Assembly (NCBI RefSeq): GCF_041821025.1
Contig: NZ_JBGUAY010000002.1
Span: 62,001 to 126,000, forward strand
Reading direction: 5' to 3'
DNA: 64,000 bases
Origin: Egicoccus sp. AB-alg6-2
GTDB lineage: Bacteria; Actinomycetota; Nitriliruptoria; Nitriliruptorales; Nitriliruptoraceae
Made by a program: the position numbers and the translations under genes. How positions within the stretch are numbered: the stretch's first letter is position 1; each line of letters starts with the position of its first letter. The notes beneath the pieces were generated by a model that was not told the origin of the DNA, did not search any database, and worked only from the letters and a program-made list of their open reading frames with translations. Below are positions 12,469 to 34,048 of this stretch, one piece after another.

Positions 12469-13703
12469 GCGCGGGTGACCAGCCAGACCAGCGAGCCGAC
12501 CGCGAGCAGGGCGGCGCCGCCGATGACGGCGACCGGTGGCAGGCTGCCCGCCAGCAGGACACACAGCGCCAGGCCCAGCCGCGCCAGCCACCGCGGCCAG
12601 CGCCGCTCGGCGCCCGTGAGCGTCGCCGCCGAGGCGTTGGTCAGGGCGTAGTAGGTCAGGACCGCGAAGGAACTGAACCCGATCGCGCCGCGCAGGTCGG
12701 CCACCAGCACGATGGCGCACACCGTCGCGGCCGCCGTGAACTCGGCGTGGTGCGGTGTCCGTCGCCGCGGGTGGACGGCATCGAGGAAGCGCGGCAGTTC
12801 GCGACGCCGCGCCATCGACAGCGTGGTCCGGCTGACCCCGGCCAGCAACGACAACAGGACCCCGGCAGCGGCGATCGCGGCCCCCACCCGGACGGCCGGC
12901 GCGGCGGCCGCGAACCGTCCGGATTCCACGGCCGCCACCAGCGGCGCGGGCGCCTCGGCCAGCGCCTGTGGACCTGCCGTCAGCAACGCGGCGCCCAGCA
13001 CGACCGCGTAGACGGCCACGACGATCCCCAGCGCCAGCGGGATGGCGCGCGGAATGGTCACCGCCGGATCCTCGACCTCCTCGCCGAGCGTCGCCAGCCG
13101 CGCGTAGCCGGCGAACGCGAAGAACAGCAGGCCGCCCGCCTGCAGCACGCCGTACGGTCCGGCGGGCAGGGCGGCGTCGAGGTTGCCGGCCGCCGGCCCG
13201 CCGCCGCCGAGCATGGCCGCCACGGCGACGGTCAACGCGGCGAGGACCAGTGCGACGATGACCCGGCTGAGGCGTGCCGTCTTCTCGACGCCGAGGTAGT
13301 TCACGCCGGCCATGACCACGACCGCGGCGATGCCGATCGGGCGTGCGTATGCGGGGGCGACGTAGGCGCCGAAGGTCAGGGCCATCGCGGCCAGGCTCGC
13401 CGTCTTGCCGACGACGAAGGACCAGCCCGCGAGAAAGCCCCAGTAGGACCCGAGTCGTTCGCGCGCATAGACGTAGGTGCCGCCCGCCTCGGGGTGCAGC
13501 GCGGCGAGTTGCGCCGACGAGGTCGCGTTGGCATACGCCACCAGGGCGGCGAGCGCCAGCCCGAGCAGCAGCCACGACCCGGCCGACGCGGCAGCGGGTC
13601 CGGGTGCGGCGAAGATCCCGGCACCGATCATCGCCCCGAGCCCGATGACGACGGCGTCGAACGTGGTGAGACGGCGGGCGAGCGAGGGGGAGGAGTGGTT
13701 CAT
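12453..13703 (-). CDS. APC-superfamily amino-acid/polyamine permease
   Basis: This 416-aa membrane protein has about twelve hydrophobic segments. The first helix region VVIGLGAMIGAGIFAAPGPAA carries the GAGIF motif of the APC family. The substrate cannot be assigned. Its ATG overlaps the stop of the upstream arsC gene (ATGA), so both come from one transcript. That pairing suggests a role in the arsenic or oxyanion response, which would be unusual for this family. Confidence 0.85.
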   Translation of the reverse strand: MNHSSPSLARRLTTFDAVVIGLGAMIGAGIFAAPGPAAASAGSWLLLGLALAALVAYANATSSAQLAALHPEAGGTYVYARERLGSYWGFLAGWSFVVGKTASLAAMALTFGAYVAPAYARPIGIAAVVVMAGVNYLGVEKTARLSRVIVALVLAALTVAVAAMLGGGGPAAGNLDAALPAGPYGVLQAGGLLFFAFAGYARLATLGEEVEDPAVTIPRAIPLALGIVVAVYAVVLGAALLTAGPQALAEAPAPLVAAVESGRFAAAAPAVRVGAAIAAAGVLLSLLAGVSRTTLSMARRRELPRFLDAVHPRRRTPHHAEFTAAATVCAIVLVADLRGAIGFSSFAVLTYYALTNASAATLTGAERRWPRWLARLGLALCVLLAGSLPPVAVIGGAALLAVGSLVWLVTRAAQRP

Positions 13704-14113
13704 GACGACGCTGCGAGACCCAGCTCGTCGAGCAGGCCACGGACGCGGACCTCGATCTCGTCGCGGATGGGGCGCACGGCCGCCGTCCCCAGACCGGCCG
13801 GGTCCGGCAGCTCCCAGTCGAGGTAGCGGGTCCCCGGCACGTACGGACACGTGTCCCCGCAGCCCATCGTGACCACGACGTCGGTGGTCGCCAGCACCTC
13901 GTCGGTCCATCGCTGGGGCGCGTGGCCGGCGATGTCGATGCCCACCTCGCGCATCGCCTCGACGGCGGCCGGGTTGACGGCCTCGGCCGGTTCCGAACCG
14001 GCGGACAGCACCCGAACCCGGTCACCGGCCAGCGTGCGCAGCCAGCCCGCCGCCATCTGCGAGCGTCCGGCGTTGTGGACGCACAGGAACAGCACCGTCG
14101 GGCGCGTGGGCAT
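13700..14113 (-). CDS. arsC: Arsenate reductase, low-molecular-weight phosphatase type
   Basis: This 137-aa protein has the phosphatase loop CVHNAGRSQ with nucleophile Cys11 and Arg17, and a second cysteine pair Cys85 and Cys89 in MGCGDTCP. The arrangement fits ArsC enzymes that reduce arsenate to arsenite with a thioredoxin-like or mycothiol relay. It is the first gene of a leftward arsC-permease unit. A site that matches the operator of the arsenic island at 22 kb lies 31 bp upstream. The electron donor is not evident. Confidence 0.85.
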   Translation of the reverse strand: MPTRPTVLFLCVHNAGRSQMAAGWLRTLAGDRVRVLSAGSEPAEAVNPAAVEAMREVGIDIAGHAPQRWTDEVLATTDVVVTMGCGDTCPYVPGTRYLDWELPDPAGLGTAAVRPIRDEIEVRVRGLLDELGLAASS

Positions 14114-14143
14114 GGCTGGCTCCTCGTCGGGGATGCGCGCAGA

Positions 14144-14163
14144 TTAGCTCAACGATCATCGAG
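14144..14163. promoter_or_regulatory. Putative ArsR operator of the arsC-permease unit
   Basis: The sequence is TTAGCTCA, seven bases, then TCGAG. Read on the opposite strand, the site at 22058-22077 in the arsR-acr3 promoter has the same TTAGCTCA, the same seven-base gap and TTGAG. The core forms an imperfect inverted repeat around CTCA and CGAG. It lies 31-50 bp upstream of the arsC start, where a repressor would block transcription. Confidence 0.6.
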
Positions 14164-14568
14164 ATAAAGATCGCGCTGCGTGACGGGGCGAACTCGCAGC
14201 CGGTGCGCGTCCACCGTGCCGGCCAGCCGGCCGGTCACCGCCGGCCACCGGTCGAGGTTGCGTCGCCGGGAGGGGGCTCGGCGGTACCGTCGGCGACGTT
14301 GGAAGCCACCACCGACGACCGAGACGACCACGGTGCCGCCACTGCCACCAGACCACCTCTCGCGGAACGCCCGGGCCGGACTTCCGCCGACCGGGGATCC
14401 GTCCCCCGAGGTGCCTGACCGGCTCCCGGAGGCGCTCGGCGCCGACCGCCCGGGACCGCGGGCCACCATCACCGCACTGCACACGCCACCCCGTTGGGGT
14501 GGCGTTCGTCGTTCCTGGGCCGGTGACGGGAGCACGTCGCCCCGCTGGCTCTGGCTGGGGAGCTGCTC
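14164..14568. other. 405-bp non-coding stretch upstream of phoH
   Basis: This gap holds the arsC promoter at its left end and otherwise no convincing gene; the short open frames here are low-complexity. At 14483-14505 there is a strong hairpin (ACGCCACCCC, loop GTT, GGGGTGGCGT) followed by a T-richer stretch TCGTCGTTCCT, which looks like a rightward terminator with no gene in front of it. It could end a small RNA or act as an attenuator in the phoH leader. In mycobacteria phoH2 is preceded by a small antitoxin gene, but I cannot recognise one here. Confidence 0.5.
14483..14505 (+). terminator. Terminator-like hairpin in the phoH leader
   Basis: Two perfect 10-base arms with a 3-base loop are followed by TCGTCGTTCCT. 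It ends 63 bp before the phoH start, and no rightward gene precedes it, so attenuation or a short transcript is possible. Confidence 0.5.
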
Positions 14569-21373: not shown

Positions 21374-22054
21374 TCACGCGGCGGCGGCACGCGCCAGGCG
21401 GTCGATCCTGACGCGAAGCTCGTCGAACGCGTGCTGGAAGTCGGCCCGGGCTCCCGCGGCGGGGTCCGGGATCGACCAGTGCAGGACCGGCGCGTCGAAG
21501 GGCACCCGGCGTTCGTGCGCGCGGTCGCAGACCGACACGACGAGGTCGGTTCCCGGAGGGACGGCGTCGAGTGGCCGCGGGGTGGCGCCCGAGAGATCGA
21601 GGCCGTTGCGCCGGGCGACGGCGACGGCGCCGCGGTGCACCCGGGCGGCCGGCGTCGTTCCGGCCGAGTGCGCCTCACGGCCGGTCCGCGCCTGCCACAG
21701 CGCCGCCGCCAGCTGCGAACGCGCCGCGTTGGCCGTGCAGACGAACAGCACCCGCTCGGCCCCGGTGTCCAGCGGAGGAGGCGGCCACAGGTGGGCGACC
21801 CGGTCGTAGCGCAGGCTCACGTAACGGCGTCGGTGGTCGCCCTGGGAGGGCCGGCGTCGCACGAGTCCGGCCTGCTCGAGCGTGTTGAGGTGGAAGGCGA
21901 GCAGGTTCGCGGACACGCCCGCGATCGTGCCCAGTTCCTTCGGCGCGCGGTCGGTCAACTGCAGCGCATCGACGATCCGCAGGCGCGTCTCGTCACCGAG
22001 CGCGCGGTGGATCGCGGCACGGACGGCGAGATCGGTGGTCGTGGCATCGGTCAT
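21374..22054 (-). CDS. ArsR-type repressor fused to a low-molecular-weight phosphatase/arsenate reductase domain
   Basis: This 226-aa protein has a winged helix-turn-helix of the ArsR fold (about residues 8-90; LGDETRLRIVDAL, VSANLLAFHLNTLEQAGLV) followed by an ArsC/LMW phosphatase domain (about 100-220). That domain has the loop VCTANAARSQ with Cys106 and Arg112 and a second cysteine, Cys176, in VSVCDRAHE. The DNA-binding half contains no cysteine, so it lacks the usual ArsR arsenite site. It is divergent from acr3, and a putative operator lies three bases upstream of its ATG. It may both sense and reduce arsenate. Confidence 0.88.
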   Translation of the reverse strand: MTDATTTDLAVRAAIHRALGDETRLRIVDALQLTDRAPKELGTIAGVSANLLAFHLNTLEQAGLVRRRPSQGDHRRRYVSLRYDRVAHLWPPPPLDTGAERVLFVCTANAARSQLAAALWQARTGREAHSAGTTPAARVHRGAVAVARRNGLDLSGATPRPLDAVPPGTDLVVSVCDRAHERRVPFDAPVLHWSIPDPAAGARADFQHAFDELRVRIDRLARAAAA

Positions 22055-22057
22055 TCG

Positions 22058-22077
22058 CTCAAGAATAACTGAGCTAA
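22058..22077. promoter_or_regulatory. Putative ArsR operator between the arsR fusion and acr3
   Basis: CTCAA, seven bases and TGAGCTAA form an inverted repeat (GCTCA/TGAGC). On the minus strand this reads TTAGCTCA-N7-TTGAG and matches the site upstream of arsC at 14144. It abuts the start codon of the arsR fusion and lies 63 bp before acr3, so one repressor could control both directions. Confidence 0.6.
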
Positions 22078-22139: not shown

Positions 22140-23246
22140 ATGCCATCCGAGACCCCTTCGACCGCCGCGGCCGTCGACGCGCGTGACGCCGCCGTGACGG
22201 GGCGACTGTCGCTGCTCGACCGCTTCCTCCCGGTGTGGATCGGCGCCGCCATGCTCGGCGGGCTGCTCCTCGGCCGCCTGGTCCCAGGTGTGGGCGAGGC
22301 ACTCGAGGCGCTCGAGATCGACACGGTCTCGCTCCCCATCGCCGTCGGGCTGCTGGTGATGATGTACCCGCCGCTGGCAAAGGTCCGTTACGGACAACTG
22401 CGCGAGGTGACCGCCGACCGGCGGCTGGTGGTCACCTCGCTGGTGCTGAACTGGCTCGTCGGGCCGGCGTTGATGTTCGCCCTGGCGTGGACGTTCCTGC
22501 CGGATCTCCCCGAGTACCGGACCGGGTTGATCATCGTGGGCCTGGCCCGCTGCATCGCGATGGTCCTGATCTGGAACGACCTCGCCTGCGGCGACACCGA
22601 TGCCGCCGCGGTCCTGGTCGCCATCAACTCCGTGTTCCAGATCGCGGCCTACTCGCTGCTCGGCTACTTCTACCTGTCGGTCCTGCCCGGCTGGCTGGGC
22701 TGGGAGCAGCAGACACTCGACGTCTCCCTGTGGCAGATCACCCGGGCCGTCCTGGTCTTCCTCGGCATCCCCTTGCTCGCCGGCTTCCTCACCCGCACGC
22801 TGGGGGAGAAGCGCAGGGGCCGGGCGTGGTACGAGGGCACGTTCCTGCCGCGCATCGGGCCGTGGGCGCTGTACGGCCTGCTCGCCACGGTGGTCATGCT
22901 GTTCGCATTGCAGGGCGACCAGATCGTCGCCAACCCGCTCGACGTGGGTCGGATCGCGATCCCGCTGCTGGTGTACTTCGCGCTCATGTTCGGCGTGTCG
23001 TTCGCGCTCGGCAGGAAGGTCGGCCTGGGCTACGAGCGCAACGCCACGCTGTCGTTCACGGCGGCCGGCAACAACTTCGAGCTCGCCATCGCCGTCGCGA
23101 TCGGCGTGTTCGGCGCCACTTCGGGGCAGGCGCTCGCGGGCGTGGTCGGACCCCTCATCGAGGTGCCGGCCCTGGTCGGGCTGGTCTATGTCGCCCTGTG
23201 GGCCCGGCGCCGCTTCTACCCGGGATCGCCACCTCCGCGTAGATGA
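22140..23246 (+). CDS. acr3: ACR3-family arsenite efflux permease
   Basis: This 368-aa membrane protein has about ten hydrophobic segments and expels arsenite from the cell. The essential cysteine of the family is Cys138 in GLARCIAMVLIWNDLACGD, and the NNFELAIAVAIG segment near the C-terminus is also typical. The start at 22140 follows the divergent arsenic operator; an open frame further upstream is not family-like. It is followed at 20 bp by the convergent second arsR gene. Confidence 0.93.
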   Translation: MPSETPSTAAAVDARDAAVTGRLSLLDRFLPVWIGAAMLGGLLLGRLVPGVGEALEALEIDTVSLPIAVGLLVMMYPPLAKVRYGQLREVTADRRLVVTSLVLNWLVGPALMFALAWTFLPDLPEYRTGLIIVGLARCIAMVLIWNDLACGDTDAAAVLVAINSVFQIAAYSLLGYFYLSVLPGWLGWEQQTLDVSLWQITRAVLVFLGIPLLAGFLTRTLGEKRRGRAWYEGTFLPRIGPWALYGLLATVVMLFALQGDQIVANPLDVGRIAIPLLVYFALMFGVSFALGRKVGLGYERNATLSFTAAGNNFELAIAVAIGVFGATSGQALAGVVGPLIEVPALVGLVYVALWARRRFYPGSPPPRR

Positions 23247-23810: not shown

Positions 23811-24206
23811 ATGTCCCGTGTCCAACTCGCCCTCGACGTCACCGACCTCGACGCCGCCGTCGCCTTCTACACCGCGCTCTTCGGCGTCGGACCGGCGAAG
23901 CGCAAGCCGGGTTACGCCAACTTCGCGGTCGAGGATCCACCGCTCAAGCTGGTCCTGCTGGAGGGCGCCACCGGCGGCACCCTCAACCACCTCGGCATCG
24001 AGGTGGTCGACCGCGACGCCGTGAACTCCGCCGCCGGGCGGCTCGCCGCCGAGGGCCTCGCCACCGACGAGCGCGCCGGCGAGACCTGTTGCTACGCCAC
24101 CCAGGACAAGGTCTGGGTCGGCGACCCCGATGGCGCGCGCTGGGAGGTCTACACCGTGCTCGCCGACGCCGACACGTTCGCCGAACCGTCCCTTACCTGC
24201 TGCTGA
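23811..24206 (+). CDS. arsI: ArsI/CadI-type C-As lyase (glyoxalase fold)
   Basis: This 131-aa vicinal-oxygen-chelate protein closely resembles mycobacterial CadI and the organoarsenical lyase ArsI, which removes methyl or aryl groups from trivalent arsenicals. The metal ligands Gln5, His60 (LNHLGIEV) and Glu112 and the arsenic-binding pair Cys93-Cys94 (TCCYATQDKVWV) are present. A further Cys-Cys pair ends the protein. It follows the ArsR operator array. Cadmium induction is reported for CadI, so more than one metal may be involved. Confidence 0.92.
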   Translation: MSRVQLALDVTDLDAAVAFYTALFGVGPAKRKPGYANFAVEDPPLKLVLLEGATGGTLNHLGIEVVDRDAVNSAAGRLAAEGLATDERAGETCCYATQDKVWVGDPDGARWEVYTVLADADTFAEPSLTCC

Positions 24207-24463: not shown

Positions 24464-25384
24464 TCAGCCGAAACGGCCGGTGATGTAGGCCTCGGTCCGC
24501 TCGTCGGCGGCCTCGGTGAACAGCGTCTCCGTGCGGTCGAACTCCACCAGTCGCCCGGTCCGCTGCCCGTCCTCGTCGTCGATGTCGACGGTGAGGAACG
24601 CGGTCCGGTCCGAGACCCGCGCCGCCTGCTGCATGTTGTGGGTCACGATCACGATCGAGTACTGACCGCGCAGTTCGCGCATCAGGTCCTCGATCTTCAG
24701 CGTCGCGATCGGGTCGAGGGCCGAGCACGGCTCGTCCATCAGGATCACGTCCGGCTCCAGCGCGATCGCCCGGGCGATGCACAGCCGCTGCTGCTGGCCG
24801 CCCGACAGCGAGGTGCCGGGGGCGTTGAGCTTGTCCTTCACCTCGTCCCACAGCGCCGCGCCACGCAGGGCCTGCTCGACCCGGTCGCCGAGTTGGCGGG
24901 TCATACCGTGCAGCCGCGGCCCGAACGCCACGTTGTCGTAGATCGACATCGCGAACGGGTTCGGTTTCTGGAACACCATGCCGATGCGGCGGCGGACCTC
25001 GGCGGCGTCGACGGCGGGGTCGTAGATGTCCTCGCCGTGGTAGGTGACCGAGCCCTCGACCGTGCAACCCTCGATGAGGTCGTTGAGACGGTTGAGCGTC
25101 CTCAGCAGCGTCGACTTGCCGCAGCCGGACGGGCCGATCAGCGCCGTGATCTCGCCGGTCGGGATCCGCAGGTCGATGTCGGCGACGGCGGCGTCGCCGC
25201 CGTAGCGCACCGTCACGCCGCGGATCTCGAACACGGCGCCGTCGATCTCGGACGGCACGGTCGGTTGGTCGCGGCCGTCCAGGTGTGGCCTGGTCGTGGA
25301 CGCGCCGCCCGCGGATTCGGTCACCGACAGGGTCGCGTCCGGGGTGCGCACGCCCAGGTCGGTGGGGAGGGGGTTGTCGGTCAT
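24464..25384 (-). CDS. pstB: Phosphate ABC transporter ATPase PstB (first copy)
   Basis: This 306-aa ATPase energises high-affinity phosphate import. It has Walker [10 protein letters not shown] at residues 84-92, the Q-loop MVFQKPNPF, the signature LSGGQQQR and Walker B VILMDEP. The first 50 residues are a variable extension. It is the last gene of a leftward pstS-pstC-pstA-pstB unit. A second pstB lies at 29.8 kb. The ATG at 25384 starts the open, family-compatible frame 17 bp after pstA. Confidence 0.95.
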
Positions 25385-25401
25385 GTTCGAAGACCTCGCG
25401 G

Positions 25402-26301
25402 TCAGCGGCGGGTGCCCCAGCGCGCCGTGACGAACCGGGCAGCCAGGGTGAGGATCAGCACGACCAGCATCAGGAACAGCGCGCCGGCCCAGGCACGCTG
25501 CTGGCCGGCGGGAAAGGGCTGGCGGGCACCGCGATAGATCAGCAGCGTGAGGGAGGCGATGGGCGTCCCCTGCAACTGGCTGACGACCTGCAACGAGCCC
25601 AACGCGGTCAGCAGCAGCACGGCCGTCTCGCCGGCGGCCCGGGCGACCGCAAGCATCGCGCCGGTCACCAGTCCCGGCGCCGCACTCGGCACGACCACGC
25701 GCAGGATCGTCTGCCACTTGCGTGCGCCGAGGCCGATCGAGGCCGCCCGCTGGTCCTCGGGGACCAGCTTGAGCATCTCTTCGCTGGAGCGGACGATGAT
25801 CGGCAGCATGAGCACGGCGAGTCCGGCGGCCCCGACGATCGCTCCGAACCCGAAGGCGCCGCGGACGAGCAGGGCGTAGATGAACAGGCCGACGAAGACG
25901 CTCGGGACCCCGGTCATCACGTCGGTGAAGAACCGGATGACGCGCGGCAGCCAGCCCCGCCCGTACTCGGTGAGGTAGATCGCCGCGAGAATGCCCACCG
26001 GCACCGAGACCAGGGTGGCGAACCCGACCATGTAGGCCGAGCCGATGATGCCGTGGACGTAGCCGCCGCCCTCGCGGCGCGCGCCCGGCTGAATCTGGGT
26101 CAGGAACTCCCCGTCGAGCGCCGGGAGTCCGCGCCGGGTGACCTCCGCGAGGATCAGCACCAGCGGAACCACGGCCACGACCATGCCGAGCGAGAGCAGC
26201 AGACGGGCCAACGAGGACCGGCCGCGGCGTCGGCGCGTGTGGGCGTCGACCTCGCGCAGGCTGACACGCGGCCGGTCGGGCCGGATGAGGGTGTCGCTCA
26301 C
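25402..26301 (-). CDS. pstA: Phosphate ABC transporter permease PstA
   Basis: This 299-aa inner-membrane protein has about six transmembrane segments and the permease motif [15 protein letters not shown] near residue 225. It forms the membrane channel with PstC. The GTG start overlaps the pstC stop (GTGA). The arginine-rich N-terminus is cytoplasmic. Confidence 0.94.
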
Positions 26302-27302
26302 AGCGCGGCGTCTCCTGCGACGCGCCCGATCCGCCACACGAGCAGCCGGGCGAGGACGTTGACGATGACGGTGATCAGGAACAGCCCGACCCCGACGGCG
26401 ATCAGGGCGTCCACGGTCTCGGGCGCGGCGTCCTGGAAGGTGCTGGCGATGTGGCCCGCCATCGACTGACCGGCGAAGAACAGGCTCGCGCCCCAGCGCT
26501 GCTGGCCGCCGATGAGCATCGCAACGGCGATCGTCTCGCCGAGGGCACGGCCGAGGCCGAGCATGGTGGCGCCGACGATGCCCGGGAACGAGCGCTTGAC
26601 GATGACGCGGCGCATCACCTCCCAGTCGGTCGCGCCCATCCCGTAGGCAGCCTGGATCTGGTCTTCGGGGGTCTGCGCCATGACCTCGCGGGCGATCGCC
26701 GTGATGATCGGCAGGATCATGATGGCGAGCACGTTGCCCGCGATGAAGTAGTTGACGTTGCGGGCCGGGCCCTCGAACAGCCACCCGATGAGCGGGACGT
26801 TTCCCAAGGTGGCGATCAGCACCCGCGAGATCGGTTGGAGCACGACGGGGGAGAAGAACAGCAGGCCCCACAGCCCGTAGACCACCGAGGGAATCGCGGC
26901 GAGCAGCTCGACGGTGGCGGACAGCGCCTGACGGAACCGCCTCGGCGCGATCCGGTTGATGTAGAGCGAGATGGCCAGTGCCAGCGGGAGCGCGATCGCG
27001 ATCGCGATCGCGGAGCTGATCAGCGTGCCGTAGATGAACGCGAAGGCGCCGTACGCGCCGGTGAACTCGTCCCGGCTCGACCCCGCGTCCCACTCGCTGC
27101 TGGTGAAGAAGCTGACGATGCCCTGGTAGTCGAACACCGGCCAGGCGTCGCGCGCGGTCGAGCCGATCATCAGGCCGAGCACGGCCAGGACCGACACGCC
27201 CGCCGCAAGGGCGATCGCGCGGAACAGCGGATCGGCCCAGCGGCCGGAGCCGGTGGGCCGCAGGTCGGGGCGTCGGTCGGGGGACGTCGAGGTGATGCTC
27301 AC
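26298..27302 (-). CDS. pstC: Phosphate ABC transporter permease PstC
   Basis: This 334-aa membrane protein has about six transmembrane segments and the permease motif [17 protein letters not shown]. It pairs with PstA. The GTG start is 72 bp downstream of pstS, and its end overlaps pstA by four bases. Confidence 0.94.
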
Positions 27303-27374
27303 CCAGGGCCTCCTGCGTGGTGCGACGAGTGGCTGGTGGGCGCCGCAGGACGGCGACGCCCACCAGCCGGGAGA

Positions 27375-28514
27375 TCAGTTCTGCGCGTTGATCCGCTCGA
27401 TGGCGGCGAGCACGTCGGGCTTGACGTCATCGGCCAGCGGCGCGTAGCCGAGTTCCAGGGCGAGGTCGTCGCCGTTCTCGACCGCCCACGTCCAGAAGTC
27501 GATCAGCAGGTCCGCCGTCTCCTGGTCGTACCCGCACTCCCAGGCGAAGATCCAGTTGGTCCCCGCGATCGGATAGCCGTCGCCGCCGACCCCGAGGATG
27601 TCGAACCGGAAGTCGTCGGGGATGTCGATCGCCGACAGCGCGGCGGAGGTGGCCTCGAGGGTCGGCTGGACCGCGTTGCCGTCGCGGTTGACCACCGAGG
27701 CGGTCTGCAGCCCGAGTTCGAGCGCATAGGCCTGGTTGATGTAGCCGATGCCGCCGTCGTTCTGCGTGATGCCGGCGGACACGCCCTCGTTGCCCTCACC
27801 ACCGATGGTCCCCGACGGCCACTGCACCTCGGTGCCCTCACCGAGCGTCCAGGTGTCGGTGTCGGCGTCGAGGTACTTGGTGAACACCGAGGTGGTCCCC
27901 GAGCCGTCCGAGCGGTGGACGGGGATGAACTCCTTGTCGGGAAGGTCGACGCCGGGGTTGAGCTCCGCGATCGCGGGGTCGTTCCACATCGTGATGCGTC
28001 GCTCGAAGATGTCGGCGATCAGGTCGCCGGTGAGCACCAGCTCCTCGATCTCTGGCTCGTCGTAGGCGATGGTCACCGCGCCGAAGACGACCGGGATCTC
28101 GATGGGGTCGCAGCCACGCTCGGTCGCGGCCAGCTGCAGGTCGTCCTCCGCCAGCACGCGTTCGGACGAACCGAAGTCGACGGTCTGGCTGAGGAACTGC
28201 TCGATCCCGCCGCCCGAACCGATCGACTGGTAGTTGATGAGGGCGTTGGGGTTGACGTCGTCCGCGTACGCGAAGATCCACTCTTCGAAGACCGGCGTCG
28301 GGAAGGTGGCGCCGGCCCCGTCGAGCGCGCCGGCCGGCCCGCCGGCGGTGGCCGGGTCGTCGCCGTCCTCGGCGGCCGGTTCGTCAGCGGTTGCGGGAGC
28401 GTCCTCGTCGACCGCCTGCGCGGTCGGGTCGCCGATGTCGGGGTCTGCACCGCAGGCGGAGACCAGGAGGGAGGCAGCCGCGAGGACGGCGGCTCGCCGG
28501 GTGAACGTACGCAT
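27375..28514 (-). CDS. pstS: Phosphate-binding lipoprotein PstS
   Basis: The 379-aa precursor has a signal peptide with a lipobox ending in Cys21 (SLLVSAC), so it is tethered to the outer face of the membrane. After an acidic linker it has the phosphate-binding features YQSIGSGGGIEQF and FGSSERVL, and the HRSDGSGTTSVF segment. It heads the pstSCAB unit. Pho-box-like repeats lie 73-131 bp upstream of its start. Confidence 0.95.
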   Translation of the reverse strand: MRTFTRRAAVLAAASLLVSACGADPDIGDPTAQAVDEDAPATADEPAAEDGDDPATAGGPAGALDGAGATFPTPVFEEWIFAYADDVNPNALINYQSIGSGGGIEQFLSQTVDFGSSERVLAEDDLQLAATERGCDPIEIPVVFGAVTIAYDEPEIEELVLTGDLIADIFERRITMWNDPAIAELNPGVDLPDKEFIPVHRSDGSGTTSVFTKYLDADTDTWTLGEGTEVQWPSGTIGGEGNEGVSAGITQNDGGIGYINQAYALELGLQTASVVNRDGNAVQPTLEATSAALSAIDIPDDFRFDILGVGGDGYPIAGTNWIFAWECGYDQETADLLIDFWTWAVENGDDLALELGYAPLADDVKPDVLAAIERINAQN

Positions 28515-28586
28515 CGAGTGTCACTCCAGGAGCGTGGCAGCGGAAGGGCGGAACGACGGTGACGCTACGAAGCCCGTCTTCCGGTG

Positions 28587-28645
28587 CCGTGACCTGCGGT
28601 GGAACGGAAGGTGAACGATCCCGAGTCTGGGTCACCCAGGTGAAC
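28587..28645 (-). promoter_or_regulatory. Pho-box-like repeats upstream of pstS
   Basis: Read on the minus strand, the region holds GTTCACCTTCC directly followed by GTTCCACCGCA and GGTCACGGCAC, three 11-base units. They correspond to the actinobacterial PhoP/RegX3 direct-repeat pattern. Another GTTCACC lies 29 bases further upstream (28639-28645). The location just ahead of pstS and the phosphate genes nearby support the reading. Confidence 0.65.
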
Positions 28646-28698
28646 CCGCGGTTGCGGACAGGCGACGTCGAGCTGACCATCGCGGCCCGAGGCGCGCG

Positions 28699-29730
28699 TC
28701 AGTGCCTGCGCAGCGCGGAGACGCGTCCCGGCCGACCGCGGGTGGGCGCAGCCGCGCACCCCAGGCGGCGGTGGAGGAAGTCCGCGATCGCGTCGTGGAT
28801 CTCGTCGGGGAACTCGAGCAGCGCGCCGTGGGTGGCGTCGTGGACCACGCGCAGCTCGGCATCGGGGATGGCCGCCAGCATCTCCTCGCCGACCTCCTTC
28901 GGGGACCAGGGGTCGGCCGAACCCACCAGCACGTGCGTCGGGACGTCCACCTCGTGCAGCCACGGCCCGGCGTCGAAGTCGTGCATGCCCCTGGCGACCT
29001 CGACCGCGACGGCGGGGTCGCACGCGGCGAGGTGGCGGAAGTAGTCGTCCATCTCCTCGACCGGGGTGTAGGGGCCCAGCGCCCGGATCGCACGCGCGAC
29101 CGGCATCGCCACGGGCAGACGGGGAGCGAGCGCGGCCAGGCGGCGGATCGGCCCCGGCACCAGCGGTACCGCGTGGTAGAGCAGCGGGAACAGGCGACTG
29201 CCGAGATCGGTGCCGTAGAAGGTCCGCATCGGCGACGAGAAGGGGCCGGTGACCAGCACCAGGCCGGCGACGAGGTCGGGGCGCTGTCGCCACAGTGCGA
29301 GCGCGACCTCGCAGCCCATCGAGTGGCCCAACGCCACCGTGCCCGTCAGGCCCTCGGCGTCGAGGACGGCGGCGACGTCGCCCGCGAGCCGCTCGATGGT
29401 GTAGTCCTCGGCCCGGGCGGGTCGCAGCCGGCTGCCGCGGTCCGGAGGGCAACCCGACGCACCGACGCCGCGGTAGTTGAGGACGACCACCGGGTGGCGT
29501 TCGGCGAGCGCGCCGGCGACACGCGCCCAGTGGTTGTCCGGACACAGGTACCCGGCGCAGAGCACCAGGGGGATCGTGTCGTCGTCGCCCCCGAGCACGG
29601 TGTAACGGATCGTCACCCCGTCGGCACTGACGGCCTCGCGGTCCTTGGTCCACACGTGACCGCCCCGGTCGCGATCGGGCCGTGCACGCGAAAGGCCCAG
29701 CGCCGCACCCAGCGTTCGCCCGGCGTTCAT
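28699..29730 (-). CDS. Alpha/beta-hydrolase family protein
   Basis: This 343-aa protein has the alpha/beta-hydrolase nucleophile elbow [10 protein letters not shown] (serine nucleophile near residue 144), the oxyanion segment [13 protein letters not shown] and a late catalytic-type HGALLEF. The substrate is unknown. It is located inside the phosphate block between pstS and the second pstB, with a Pho-like repeat just upstream of its start. The ATG at 29730 was preferred over an earlier GTG because an AGGGTGA site lies about ten bases before it. Confidence 0.8.
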
Positions 29731-29735
29731 CGGAC

Positions 29736-29768
29736 GTTCACCCTGACCTCGCACACTTCGTCACGACC
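29736..29768 (+). promoter_or_regulatory. Possible Pho box between the hydrolase and the second pstB
   Basis: GTTCACCCTGA at 29736-29746 is followed in 11-base register by weaker units CCTCGCACACT and TCGTCACGACC. It lies between divergent genes, 57 bp before the pstB2 start. Only the first unit is a good match, so confidence is moderate. Confidence 0.4.
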
Positions 29769-29802
29769 GCCGACCGTAGCCCCCACCGGTGCAGGAGAAC
29801 GC

Positions 29803-30666
29803 ATGCGAGCCCCGACCGCCGCCGTCGCGCCCCGTCCCGCGCCGGTCGCCGAGCCGCGCGGCGCCGTCGCCACGGACGGCCCGTCTGCGCCGCCCGTGCT
29901 CCGCCTCGAGCAGGTCGGCGTCAGCTACGGCGCGGTAGCAGCCGTCTCTGGCGTGTCCTTCGACGTGCGCACCCGCGAGATCACCGCGCTGATCGGACCG
30001 TCCGGATGCGGCAAGTCGACGCTGCTGCGGGCGATGAACCGCATGAACGACCTCGTCGACGGCGCCCGGGTCGAGGGTCGCGTGACCTACCACGACCGGG
30101 ACCTGTACGCCCCCGACGTCGACCCGGTGGAGGTCCGTCGCCGCATCGGCATGGTGTTCCAGAAGCCGAACCCGTTCCCGAAGTCGATCTACGACAACGT
30201 GGCGTTCGGTCCCCGCCTGCTCGGGCGCGTCGACGACCTCGACGACGTCGTCGAGCACGCCCTGCGTGCCGCCGCGCTCTGGGACGAGGTCAAGCACGGT
30301 CTCGACGCCTCGGGTCTCGCCCTCTCGGGTGGCCAGCAACAGCGGCTGTGCATCGCCCGGGCCATCGCCACTTCGCCGGACGTCCTGCTGATGGACGAAC
30401 CCTGCTCCGCCCTCGATCCGATCGCCACCCTGAAGATCGAGGACCTGATGCGCGAGTTGCGCGAGCGGTACACGATCGTGGTGGTGACCCACAACATGCA
30501 GCAGGCGGCGCGGGTGTCGGACTGGACGGCCTTTCTCTCGGTCGACGTCGACGGGACCTCGAGGAGCCGGGGCGGCACGCTGGTGGAGTTCGACCGGACC
30601 GAACGGCTCTTCACCCAGGCCGCGGACGAGCGCACGGAGGCCTACATCACCGGACGGTTCGGTTGA
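29803..30666 (+). CDS. pstB: Phosphate ABC transporter ATPase PstB (second copy)
   Basis: This 287-aa paralogue of the PstB at 24.5 kb has Walker [10 protein letters not shown] at residues 65-73, the Q-loop [12 protein letters not shown], the signature LSGGQQQR and Walker B VLLMDEP. The two proteins share long identical stretches, including the C-terminal end [13 protein letters not shown]. The ATG has an AGGAG site five bases upstream. It is translated with phoU through a TTGA overlap, without its own permeases, so it may swap into the single PstCA channel. Confidence 0.93.
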
Positions 30667-31319
30667 CGGCCCTGCTCCGCGGGGCCTTCCAGGCCCGGCT
30701 CGACGACGTCGACGACGAGCTCGTCGGGGCCGCGCTGGTGGTCGCGGAGGCGCTGCCACGCACGGCGAGGGCGCTGCTGCAGGGGGAGGCCGCCGTCGCC
30801 GACGTCGTCCGCTCCATGGCCCGCGACGTCAACGAACGCTGCCGCTGGGTCGAGGAACAGGGGTTCGTGCTGCTCGCGCGCGAGGCACCGGTCGCGGGGG
30901 ACCTGCGGCGGCTGGTCGGCATCCTGCGGCTGGTCACCTCCGTCGAACGCTCGGCCGCCCTGCTGCGGCACATCGGTGAGGCGGTCGAACGCGTCGACAC
31001 CACGGCGTTGCCCGACGAGATCCGCGCCATCATCGAGGCGCTGGGGACCTCCGCCGGCGAGGTGTTCCGTCAGGGGGTCGATGCCTGGCGACGCCGGGAC
31101 GCGCTCGCCGTCCACGAGGTCGATCGGGAGGACGAGATGGTCGACCGGCTCCAGCAGCGGTTGCTCGGCCGGGCCCGTGAGGTCGTCGACGCGCCGGCGG
31201 AGTTGTTGCTGCTCGGACTGCTGGCCCGGTACTACGAACGCATCGCCGACCACGGGGTCTCGTTCGCGCAGCACGCGGCGTTCGCGGTGACGGGAGCGCG
31301 GATCGACGTGGGCCGGTGA
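30663..31319 (+). CDS. phoU: PhoU-family phosphate regulator (first copy)
   Basis: This 218-aa all-helical protein has two PhoU repeats ([24 protein letters not shown] is shortened here to [16 protein letters not shown]; later [18 protein letters not shown]). PhoU proteins bind metal clusters and link the Pst transporter to its two-component system. The TTG start overlaps the pstB2 stop. It is convergent with another phoU gene 20 bp away. Confidence 0.88.
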
Positions 31320-31339
31320 GGCCCGTCGACGCTGCCCGC

Positions 31340-32005
31340 TCAGCGCTCGGACGCGGACAGTTCCACGGTCCGGCCGGTCGCGACGAAGACCGTCTGTTCG
31401 GCGATGTCGACGCCATGGTCGGCGAACCGTTCGAGCAGCCGGGCCAGCTGGATCATGTGGGTCGCCCATTCGAGGCGGTGCTCGTCCTGGGACGCCAGGC
31501 GCACCAGCCGGTGGAAGATGCCGAGGTTGAGCCGGTCGACGTCGTCGTCGAGGCGCGCACACGCCCTGGCGTGCTCGACGTCACGGTGCACGAACGCCTG
31601 CATGGCCGCGTGGGCCACCTCGCGGGCACGAGTGCCCATCTCGAGCAGCTGCCCGGTCAGTGCCTCGTCGGCCGGCAGGTCGCGGACCCGCTCCACGGTG
31701 CGGGCCACGCCGGACGCGTAGTCGCCCATCCGCTCGAGGTGGAGGCTGACGTGGATCAGCGCCGTCAACAACCGCAGGTCACCGGCGACGGGGCCGTGCA
31801 GCGCGACGACGGCCAATACGCCCTGCTGCACCTGCTCGTAGGCACGGTCGAGTTCGTCGTCGGCGACCACGACCCGTCGGGCGGCTTCGAGGTCGGAGAC
31901 CTCCAGCGCCTGCAATGCTTCACCCAGCATCGCGTCGGCACGCTCGCTCATGGCCACGACGCGCGTCAACAGCTGGTCGAGCTGGGCCTGCAGGTCGTGC
32001 CGCAT
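31340..32005 (-). CDS. phoU: PhoU-family phosphate regulator (second copy)
   Basis: This 221-aa helical protein shows both PhoU repeats, with GPVAGDLRLLTALIHVS and LERFADHGVDIAEQTVF. It is divergent from the response regulator at 32061, with 55 bp between the starts. That matches mycobacterial phoY genes near senX3-regX3 in role, though not in exact order. Two PhoU proteins beside two PstB proteins suggest separate signalling states. Confidence 0.9.
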   Translation of the reverse strand: MRHDLQAQLDQLLTRVVAMSERADAMLGEALQALEVSDLEAARRVVVADDELDRAYEQVQQGVLAVVALHGPVAGDLRLLTALIHVSLHLERMGDYASGVARTVERVRDLPADEALTGQLLEMGTRAREVAHAAMQAFVHRDVEHARACARLDDDVDRLNLGIFHRLVRLASQDEHRLEWATHMIQLARLLERFADHGVDIAEQTVFVATGRTVELSASER

Positions 32006-32060
32006 GACGGACCCCCTTCGCCCTCCGTAGCGTAAGACCCAGGACAAGGAACCACCACCG

Positions 32061-32747
32061 ATGCCGAAGCTGTTGCTGGTCGAGGACGAGCAGGCGATCG
32101 CCGCGGGGCTGGCGATCACGCTCGAGGCCGAGGGATTCCAGGTCGTCTGGGTCAAGGACGGGCTCGAAGCCATTCCGGCCTGGGAGCGCATCCGCCCCGA
32201 TCTCGTCGTGCTCGACCTGATGCTGCCGGGCATGTCCGGTACCGAGATCTGCCGGGCGATCCGGGCCCGTTCCGACGTCCCGATCATCATGCTCACGGCC
32301 CGTGAGGCCGAGGTCGACCGGGTCGTGGGGCTCGAACTCGGCGCCGACGACTACGTGACCAAGCCGTTCTCGACCCGCGAACTGATCGCCCGCATCAAGG
32401 CCGTGCTGCGTCGCGCCCCGTTGCACGACCTCGGCGGGGACGATGCTCCCGTCGAGGCGTCCGGCGTCCGCGTCGACCGCGCCCGCCACGAGGTCCGCGT
32501 CGACGGGGTGGCGGTCGAGCTGCCGCCGAAGGAGTTCGAACTGCTGGCCTACCTCGTCGAACACGCCGGGCGGGTGCTCACGAGAGGACAGCTCATCGAC
32601 GAGGTGTGGGGCAGCGACTACGTGGGGGACACCAAGACGCTCGACGTCCACATCCGTCGCCTGCGCATGCGCGTCGAACGGGAACCGGACGCGCCGACCC
32701 GGATCCAGACCGTGCGGGGCGTGGGCTACCGGTTCGCCGACTCGTGA
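32061..32747 (+). CDS. OmpR-family response regulator (RegX3/PhoP-like)
   Basis: This 228-aa regulator has a receiver domain with the acidic pair Glu8-Asp9 and phosphoacceptor Asp52 (VVLDLMLPGMSG), the conserved lysine in DYVTKPFS, and a C-terminal winged helix ending TIQTVRGVGYRF-like (RIQTVRGVGYRF). Its context of pst and phoU genes suggests it reads phosphate limitation and binds the Pho boxes in this window. Its stop overlaps the kinase start (GTGA). Confidence 0.92.
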   Translation: MPKLLLVEDEQAIAAGLAITLEAEGFQVVWVKDGLEAIPAWERIRPDLVVLDLMLPGMSGTEICRAIRARSDVPIIMLTAREAEVDRVVGLELGADDYVTKPFSTRELIARIKAVLRRAPLHDLGGDDAPVEASGVRVDRARHEVRVDGVAVELPPKEFELLAYLVEHAGRVLTRGQLIDEVWGSDYVGDTKTLDVHIRRLRMRVEREPDAPTRIQTVRGVGYRFADS

Positions 32748-34048
32748 ATCCGCGCCCGCTGTTGCTCGCGCTGGCGTATGGCGTGCTGGCGTACGCCGCG
32801 ACCCGGATGCTGTCGGCCGGCGCCGCGATGGCGGTGGTGGTGGCGGGGGCGATCGGGGTGTGGATCGTCGCCGACACGTTCGAGTCGCGCCGTCTCAGCC
32901 GACTGACGGGCCGGGTCGGCGCCTGGCTGGTCGAGGAGGACCACCGTCCGGTGCAGCTGCGCGGAGGCCCCGAGTGGCGCGAGCTCGGGATCGCGCTGAA
33001 CACGCTCGGAGCCGAATACCAGCGCCGCGGGGAACGCATCGCCCGCGAACGCCCGTGGCGTCGGGAGCTCGTCGACTCGCTGGTGCAGCCGGCGCTGCTG
33101 TTCTCCGGTGACGGCCGGATGCTCGCCGCCAACGCTCCCGCCCGCGACCTGCTCGGCATCCCGGTCGACGCGGAGCGCATGACCGTCGTGCAGGCCGTCG
33201 GCAGCACCGCCCTCGCCGAGTCGGTCCACGAGGCCAGGATCTCGCGCCAGCCGGTCACCATCGACGCCGAGCATCGTGGCCACGAACTGCGTGCAACCGT
33301 CTCGCTCGTCGGCGACGAGACCCTGATGATCATCGTCGACCGCACCCGCGAGCGCCGGACCGAGGAACTGCGTCGCAACTTCGTGGTCAACGCCTCGCAC
33401 GAACTCAAGACCCCGGTGACGGGGATCCAGACCCTGGCCGAGGCGATGCGGGTCACGCTCGACCGCGATCCCGGGCGGCTGCCGTCGCTGATCAACCAGC
33501 TCGGTGACGAGGCCGAACGGCTCGCCCGGCTGGTCAACGACCTGCTCGACCTGCGGCGGCTGGAGGAGCGTGGCCCGCTGGAGCGCGTCCCGGTCGACCT
33601 CGCCGAACTGGTGCGGCAGGTGGTCGTCGGTCTGCTCGCCCGGGCCGAGGAGCGCGAGGTCGAGCTGGTGGTCGACGCTCCCGACCGCGCCCGCGTCGCA
33701 GGGGTGCCCGGCGACCTCGAGGTGATCGTCAAGAACCTCGTCGGCAACGCCGTGCAGTACAACCGACCCGGCGGCACCGTCGTCGTCCGTCTCGCGCCCG
33801 AGGACGGCGGCTACCTGCTGACCGTGCGTGACACGGGCATCGGCATCCCGCAGCAGGACCTGTCGCGGGTCTTCGAGCGGTTCTACCGCGTCGACACCGC
33901 CCGCTCGCGCGAGACGGGCGGGACCGGCCTCGGCCTGTCCATCGTGCGTCACGCCGTCGAGCGGCACGGCGGCAGCGTGCGCGTCGACAGCCTGCTCGGC
34001 GAGGGCACGACGTTCACGGTCCGGTTGCCGGTGGCGCCTCCGCCCTGA
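32744..34048 (+). CDS. Phosphate-type sensor histidine kinase (SenX3/PhoR-like)
   Basis: This 434-aa kinase has two N-terminal transmembrane segments (about residues 5-45) with almost no external loop, a PAS-like domain (about 108-200), the HisKA box NASHELKTPVTG with His219, and an ATPase domain with DTGIGIPQQDL and GTGLGLSIV. The short external loop implies it does not bind phosphate itself and instead takes its signal from Pst-PhoU. The GTG start overlaps the stop of its regulator. Confidence 0.93.
   Translation: MNPRPLLLALAYGVLAYAATRMLSAGAAMAVVVAGAIGVWIVADTFESRRLSRLTGRVGAWLVEEDHRPVQLRGGPEWRELGIALNTLGAEYQRRGERIARERPWRRELVDSLVQPALLFSGDGRMLAANAPARDLLGIPVDAERMTVVQAVGSTALAESVHEARISRQPVTIDAEHRGHELRATVSLVGDETLMIIVDRTRERRTEELRRNFVVNASHELKTPVTGIQTLAEAMRVTLDRDPGRLPSLINQLGDEAERLARLVNDLLDLRRLEERGPLERVPVDLAELVRQVVVGLLARAEEREVELVVDAPDRARVAGVPGDLEVIVKNLVGNAVQYNRPGGTVVVRLAPEDGGYLLTVRDTGIGIPQQDLSRVFERFYRVDTARSRETGGTGLGLSIVRHAVERHGGSVRVDSLLGEGTTFTVRLPVAPPP

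Follow-up and report, generated by a model that had tools for sequence, protein, structure and literature searches.

The fusion gene and its surroundings

The window discussed here (the whole stretch of 64,000 nucleotides from Egicoccus sp. AB-alg6-2 that was analysed) contains, on its minus strand, a gene in which an ArsR-type winged helix and an ArsC/LMWPc domain are encoded as a single polypeptide, which is the composition of an ArsR-ArsC2 fusion (Table 1). With a Cys-type ArsR located behind acr3 alongside the fusion and its Cys-free winged helix, the window's arsenic gene cluster holds both kinds of repressor. Adjoining that cluster is a phosphate island (24464-34048); besides pstSCAB it holds another gene for a PstB-like ATPase (29887-30666), two genes with PhoU domains and a response regulator/kinase pair.

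Table 1. Coordinates of the features discussed in the text (positions in the window)
Feature	Position	Strand	Remarks
Stand-alone arsC, thioredoxin-type	13700..14113	-	GCGDTC pair present; predicted regulon member
Second candidate operator, palindromic CTCAACGATCATCGAG	14142..14169		core 14148-14163; 34 bp upstream of arsC start codon
ArsR-ArsC fusion, putative repressor, 226 aa	21374..22054	-	single open frame; start codon 22052-22054
ArsC/LMW-phosphatase-fold domain, proposed sensor, residues 101-220	21395..21754	-	Pfam, structural matches
Cys176 codon	21527-21529	-	fusion ArsC-like domain
Cys106 codon	21737-21739	-	fusion ArsC-like domain
Winged-helix DNA-binding domain, residues 1-95, Cys-free	21770..22054	-	sequence, AlphaFold2, structural matches
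Candidate operator AGCTCAGTTATTCTTGAGCGAATG	22052..22075	-	overlaps fusion start codon; intergenic region shared with acr3; 24.0 bits
TATTCT, -10-like hexamer	22062..22067	-	within candidate operator, 7 bases before ATG
acr3, arsenite efflux transporter	22140..23246	+	divergent from fusion; TIGR00832 443.8 bits, cut-off 282.8
Second ArsR, Cys (CVC motif) in winged helix	23266..23598	-	HTH_metalloreg 89.5 bits, cut-off 55
ArsI/CadI family enzyme	23811..24206	+	NF041414 183.8 bits, cut-off 116
pstSCAB, phosphate uptake	24464..28514	-	PstS, PstC, PstB by NCBIfam; middle permease by Pfam BPD_transp_1

An earlier note on this DNA had described a fused LMW phosphatase/ArsC domain bearing Cys106, Arg112 and Cys176, and a winged helix (residues 1-95) that is devoid of cysteine and therefore lacks the known ArsR arsenite sites. 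Each of these points was confirmed, the first by translation and by the Pfam LMWPc match (residues 102-220, 62.2 bits), and the others by translation of the minus strand of 21374-22054, in which the winged helix offers no cysteine for an As(III) site and Cys106 and Cys176 are the only cysteines of the entire fusion. The P-loop reads C106-TANAA-R112-S, with Arg112 in place, and the ArsC-like domain also retains Asn109 and an acid, Asp197. In the N-terminal half, the Pfam families HTH_20 (residues 19-68) and HTH_5 (residues 21-66; 26.9 bits against a cut-off of 22) each score above cut-off, and the NCBIfam metalloregulator model NF033788 gives the fusion 44.8 bits, below its cut-off of 55.

An AlphaFold2 model of the full-length fusion, computed with 79 sequences, displayed a mean pLDDT of 95.7 and a pTM of 0.91, and the latter value implies, for the model, a defined packing of the two domains. 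One structure alignment (A2) took 78 of the 80 fusions from named loci and another (A3) took 45 N-terminal parts. Since matches to the ArsC domain took up the whole list of structural hits to the full model, a separate prediction (pLDDT 88.8) and alignment were made for the winged helix; its last helix is short, spanning residues 83-86 in the full model and 83-89 in the model of the domain alone. Its best matches were effectively tied between SrnR (Z 13.9, 88 residues aligned, 2.4 A), the As(III) repressor 6j05 (Z 13.6, 86 residues aligned, 2.0 A) and 2oqg (Z 13.4). The fold is thus shared with classical As(III)-responsive ArsR proteins (6j05 and also 6j0e, Z 12.1), which are auto-regulated from a divergent operator, as is predicted for the fusion. 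Classical ArsR repressors bind As(III) through cysteines of the winged-helix protein, whereas the fusion has none there. For the ArsC-like domain the top match was pI258 ArsC (Z 21.2, 125 residues aligned, 1.7 A), followed by D. indicus ArsC2 (Z about 20); the arsenate reductase matches include 1lk0 (Z 20.4) and the arsenate co-crystal 8p5n, and Wzb and other phosphatases (Z 17-20) fall only 1-2 Z units under the arsenate reductases.

A known kind of fusion, its family and its gene neighbours

ArsR-ArsC2 fusions are an already known actinobacterial kind of protein, and are common in related bacteria. In Microbacterium A33, ArsRC2 reportedly represses its own operon. ArsR-ArsC fusions have been described in print (PMC6205960), and two actinobacterial fusion clusters (C4 and C7) have been distinguished, with loci of R. 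erythropolis PR4 and Microbacterium A33 being named (PMC6514093). The window fusion shares its domain order, phylum and arsenic gene neighbourhood with these ArsR-ArsC2 (ArsRC2) proteins, and is 49.1% identical over 98% to the R. erythropolis PR4 plasmid protein RER_RS00775 (match H4). In its available portion, PMC6514093 names the ArsR-ArsC2 fusion and is silent on its cysteines, operator and effector. The ArsRC of Leptospirillum ferriphilum, which belongs to another phylum and is likened here by description only, similarly joins ArsR and ArsC in a single gene, and its expression is described in excerpts of two reports as shifting under As(III) (PMC4443643, PMC6205960). Also comparable is TtSmtB of Thermus thermophilus, a repressor of the ArsR/SmtB fold that was proposed as an 'arsenate sensor' controlling arsC; as far as the accessible text of that study goes, it has three cysteines and no reported ArsC domain (PMC5658604), whereas the window fusion has an ArsC domain and two cysteines. 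A search of the open literature turned up nothing on what ArsR-ArsC fusions respond to, nor on their cysteines or operator, and how they sense arsenic appears not to have been described so far.

At E <= 1e-25, 38 of the 66 genomes searched within the class contain a fusion. At E <= 1e-20 the same holds for 53 of 396 within the phylum, a few of the phylum matches being partial or belonging to a second subfamily. Scanning named genomes with sequence patterns confirmed at least 577 relatives, the best 80 of which constitute the named-locus set; their flanks are near-full in 53 of the 80 and cut in 27. The main clade was defined by identity above 44% and, after removal of identical proteins, comprises 131 fusions, drawing on those best 80 of at least 577. 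A FastTree analysis of phosphatase domains placed all 45 sampled main-clade fusions together (support 0.88), apart from the second fusion subfamily (8 of 10 grouped, support 0.91) and from stand-alone ArsC. One candidate, L012_2210, proved to be an ArsC with an N-terminal extension; it is counted in the set of 142 and among the 11 labelled 'div', and was excluded from the tree.

The absence of cysteine from the winged helix of a single protein means little, since at the cysteine frequency of the window (26 in 5055 residues from 15 genes) a Cys-free stretch of 95 residues is expected by chance with P=0.61, and its significance in that one protein was accordingly rejected. At the level of the family, unlike the single protein, the Cys-free winged helix is meaningful: residues 1-95 contain no cysteine in 119 of the 131 unique main-clade fusions (12 cysteines in 12,353 residues), and the few that do occur lie at unshared sites, with no shared-cysteine column in the winged helix among the 131. 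Cys106 and Cys176 are both present in every one of the 131, and are the sole cysteines in 103. As the scan for the 80 named loci used two patterns that contain Cys106 or Cys176, the conservation of these residues in that set is partly selected. Protein searches free of such patterns contributed 51 unique main-clade fusions, all of which carry Cys106, Arg112 and Cys176; in 45 of the 51, residues 1-100 lack cysteine.

The neighbours of these genes were tabulated for the best 80 of at least 577 relatives. Within 1.5 kb of the fusion were found a stand-alone ArsC (59 loci), an aquaglyceroporin (54), a Cys-type ArsR (21) and an ACR3/SBF transporter (5); within 6 kb the corresponding counts were 65 for a separate reductase, 36 for a Cys-type ArsR, 11 for ACR3/SBF and 4 for Pst, so that 15 of the 80 have no separate reductase within that distance. 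An aquaglyceroporin lies within 1.5 kb in only 6 of 30 Cys-type ArsR loci, and the comparison with the best 80 of at least 577 fusion loci (54/80 versus 6/30) gives a Fisher P of 1e-5 and an odds ratio of 8.3, uncorrected for relatedness and with the two sets sampled differently. A published account of AqpS describes this channel as causing sensitivity to external arsenite and resistance to arsenite made internally (PMC6205960). On that description an aquaglyceroporin would be useful as an exporter only where the cell itself reduces arsenate to arsenite, a situation compatible with an arsenate trigger. As strict proof of As(V) sensing the linkage was rejected, since Cys-type ArsR loci also show it (the 6 of 30).

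A putative operator and a predicted regulon

A motif with the consensus aTTnaCTCAGtnAnnATTGAGTCAATGA is common to the upstream regions of the 131 fusions, where it often ends at the fusion start codon (at the same distance in 63 of 122). It exceeds 12 bits in 122 of 131 upstream regions as compared to 0 of 131 shuffled ones, these being in-sample values; a matrix built from the 80 named loci, when applied to the 51 other fusions, gave scores above 10 bits in 38 and above 15 bits in 30. In the window, the score of 24.0 bits was obtained with a 24-base matrix trained on 80 other loci, and the core of the same site was also recovered independently by a pattern search. The earlier note had placed a site at 22058-22077; that site is real, and the conserved operator extends over 22052-22075. 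A conserved putative operator that overlaps the start of the fusion is new here. Of the 118 family sites that score above 10 bits, 96 keep A and T at the positions of the hexamer, so the predicted operator probably covers the -10 element of a leaderless transcript.

Among 30 Cys-type ArsR loci, a site above 10 bits was found in 4, of which 3 hold a fusion. A 15.4-bit site in locus L180 was not accepted as a fusion operator; it lies inside arsI_CadI in a locus with no fusion, and is attributed to chance or to another ArsR.

A matrix scan of the window gave one other site above background, upstream of the stand-alone arsC gene and 8 kb from the fusion (16.0 bits on the plus strand, 13.7 bits on the minus strand); the next best site in the window reached 3.0 bits, and ten shuffled windows reached at most 6.4. 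Since the only other such site precedes arsC, the fusion, acr3 and the distant arsC are predicted to belong to one regulon, a grouping that is also new here. A search of the organism's own genome with the core pattern, allowing up to one mismatch, returned 9 matches at 8 places, including both ars sites; the other 6 places are probably chance occurrences, because no labelled genes lie within about 1.5 kb of them and a reversed control pattern gave 3 matches. In a genome of the same genus (G003), an 8.3-bit site is centred 36 bp before an arsC located on another contig. Across fusion-bearing genomes, arsC loci without a nearby fusion carry the site in 2 of 7 cases (3 have none, and 2 have no upstream sequence owing to a contig end), and in fusion-less genomes, some of them incomplete, a site above 8 bits was found at 0 of 15 arsC loci.

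The same scan bears on the suggestion that the fusion might sense phosphate or a phospho-ligand (phosphate itself or a phosphorylated protein) and thereby tie the arsenic genes to phosphate supply. Such a role would account for the pstSCAB, PhoU and response regulator/kinase genes that adjoin the window's cluster, and for the pst genes beside the fusion in R. erythropolis PR4, where pstSCAB is divergent from it on a plasmid, and on plasmids of M. lentiflavum and M. crocinum, where pstS comes after it. Against it, no operator was found in front of pstS in the window, just 4 of the best 80 of at least 577 relatives have Pst genes within 6 kb (on which count pst was rejected as a general partner of the fusions), the neighbours are overwhelmingly arsenic genes, and the top structural matches are arsenate reductases, even though phosphatases follow closely. 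We consider this explanation very improbable. On the mycobacterial plasmids represented by L144 (5001-10657) and L148 (4953-6831), pstS is located directly 3' of the fusion and on the same strand, which suggests that phosphate uptake may be part of the regulon on those plasmids.

Sensor and effector

The earlier note further proposed that the catalytic domain is the sensor, and this is very probably correct: the winged helix has no cysteine, the conserved cysteines are found in the ArsC-like domain, and the predicted operator and the arsenic gene neighbours are those of an autoregulated repressor. Both the assignment of the fusion as an autoregulated repressor of arsenic genes (supported by the candidate operator and the neighbours) and the placement of the sensor function in the ArsC-like domain (well supported by the sequence comparisons) leave the effector to be considered, and sequence does not discriminate between arsenate and arsenite in that role.

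The comparison with true arsenate reductases is instructive in this regard. The mycothiol-coupled type has a single catalytic cysteine, and a second conserved one is absent; the fusions depart from it in that Cys176 is conserved in 131 of 131. In thioredoxin-coupled ArsC, as summarized in the accessible part of one study, arsenate is attacked by C10, a disulfide between C10 and C82 follows, and C89 then resolves this bond and relays it to thioredoxin; collective motions are seen in the C10-C82 state, and over the cascade the segment from C82 to C89 turns from helix into loop (PMC6193951). With these reductases (S. aureus pI258, B. subtilis, D. indicus ArsC2) the fusion shares the fold, the CX5RS P-loop with its Asn, the Asp-Pro acid and the first two cysteines, Cys106 and Cys176 aligning with C10 and C82 of pI258 ArsC; it differs in lacking the third redox cysteine and in carrying a DNA-binding domain. 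A cysteine between positions 177 and 197 occurs in just 2 main-clade fusions, so that 129 of 131 lack the third ArsC cysteine; by contrast, the CxDxC-type pair is present in 86 of the 89 stand-alone ArsC proteins from fusion neighbourhoods. By its title, the structure 1lk0 shows the C89L variant of pI258 ArsC as the disulfide intermediate that links C10 to C82, and by analogy the fusions would naturally resemble that trapped, C89-replaced form. The fusion scores below the cut-offs of the reductase models TIGR02691 (39 versus 174.3) and NF010053 (43.2 versus 215), but the ordinary arsC of the window falls short of both as well (84.3 and 92.4), which makes this a weak criterion.

These observations weaken that part of the earlier note in which the protein was cast as a single-protein sensor-reductase, and leave its sensor half standing. 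A truly bifunctional protein would be a working reductase, coupled to mycothiol/mycoredoxin or thioredoxin and fused for co-production, with regulation following turnover or redox state. The full P-loop, the Asp and two cysteines are indeed retained, 15 of the best 80 of at least 577 loci have no separate reductase within 6 kb, and the loss of the third cysteine could be compensated by another reductant (mycothiol/mycoredoxin, or thioredoxin acting directly). However, that third, thioredoxin-type cysteine is the one that nearly all fusions lack, the second cysteine, which the fusions invariably keep, is absent from the small LMW proteins with a single Cys found at these loci, and a separate reductase is present in the remaining 65 of those best 80; a bifunctional enzyme therefore appears improbable. 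With the third cysteine missing and a separate reductase usually near, the fused domain looks more like a sensor derived from a reductase than like a working reductase. New here is this combination, in which an arsenate-binding P-loop and the first disulfide partner are kept and the resolving cysteine is absent, in genes that have a separate reductase nearby in that same proportion of the best 80 of at least 577 relatives.

The reading that we favour, while regarding the case for it as evenly balanced, is that the fusion represses its own gene and detects arsenate through its ArsC-like domain, likely by way of a stalled Cys106-Cys176 disulfide. In the absence of arsenic, a fusion dimer would occupy the operators and block the fusion, acr3 and arsC. 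Arsenate would enter the P-loop and be attacked by Cys106, in a presumed covalent As(V) step, and attack on the adduct by Cys176 would then yield the Cys106-Cys176 disulfide and arsenite. Because the cysteine that relays to thioredoxin is missing, the disulfide would not be passed to the surface, and the domain would be held in a rearranged intermediate, whose state would be transmitted across the packed domain interface such that the winged helix leaves the DNA. Bulk reduction would then be carried out by the stand-alone ArsC, and Acr3, replaced in most relatives by an aquaglyceroporin, would let arsenite leave the cell.

The main alternative is that the protein is an arsenite sensor with a relocated site, in which As(III) from the stand-alone ArsC or from uptake is chelated by Cys106 and Cys176, the DNA is released, and the retired reductase serves as a dithiol trap. 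Two conserved active-site cysteines are what an As(III) site would require, and both are invariant in the fusions; a separate reductase is usually present nearby; and the well-known ArsR repressors, in the available text of one survey, answer to As(III) (PMC6514093). A plain arsenite trap, however, would have no need of Asn109, Arg112, Asp197 or the oxyanion loop; among the fusions, the P-loop Asn and Arg as well as the Asp-Pro acid show little or no variation, as oxyanion binding would demand; in addition, an aquaglyceroporin induced by As(III) (54 of the best 80 of at least 577 loci) would admit external arsenite. Arsenite sensing at these cysteines is thus unlikely, although it deserves more weight than either the bifunctional or the phosphate explanation.

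If arsenate sensing through the stalled disulfide is true, the fusion would sense arsenate as a one-component system, with an enzyme's covalent intermediate as the signal. A large repressor family that has no cysteines in its DNA-binding half but carries an arsenate-reductase pocket would explain how some bacteria distinguish arsenate from arsenite and would supply an arsenate-specific biosensor part, and the conserved operator makes the effector question immediately testable. Extended to the whole actinobacterial family (at least 577 relatives), the proposal that arsenate is sensed by a reductase without its last step, with the Cys106-Cys176 disulfide intermediate as the signal and a common operator for acr3, aquaglyceroporin and arsC, is tentative and somewhat doubtful.

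Not all fusions work alike, to judge from the smaller second subfamily (34-39% identical; L043:5091, L044:5295, L045:5230, L046:5013, L047:4854, L048:3550 and L102:3631), which mostly retains the third ArsC cysteine together with a cysteine at position 86, where the winged helix ends, and may sense arsenic in a different manner. Fusions of both subfamilies occur together at L043:5091-7283, with an aquaglyceroporin in between and an ArsC beside them. Two related fusions (L041:5620 and L042:5280) keep the P-loop Cys and Arg and replace Asn109 by His and Cys176 by Ser; a catalytically dead sensor or one for another ligand is possible. At L036:1471-2655 the fusion frame continues free of stop codons into the next arsC region, possibly as a frame artefact or as a longer fusion.
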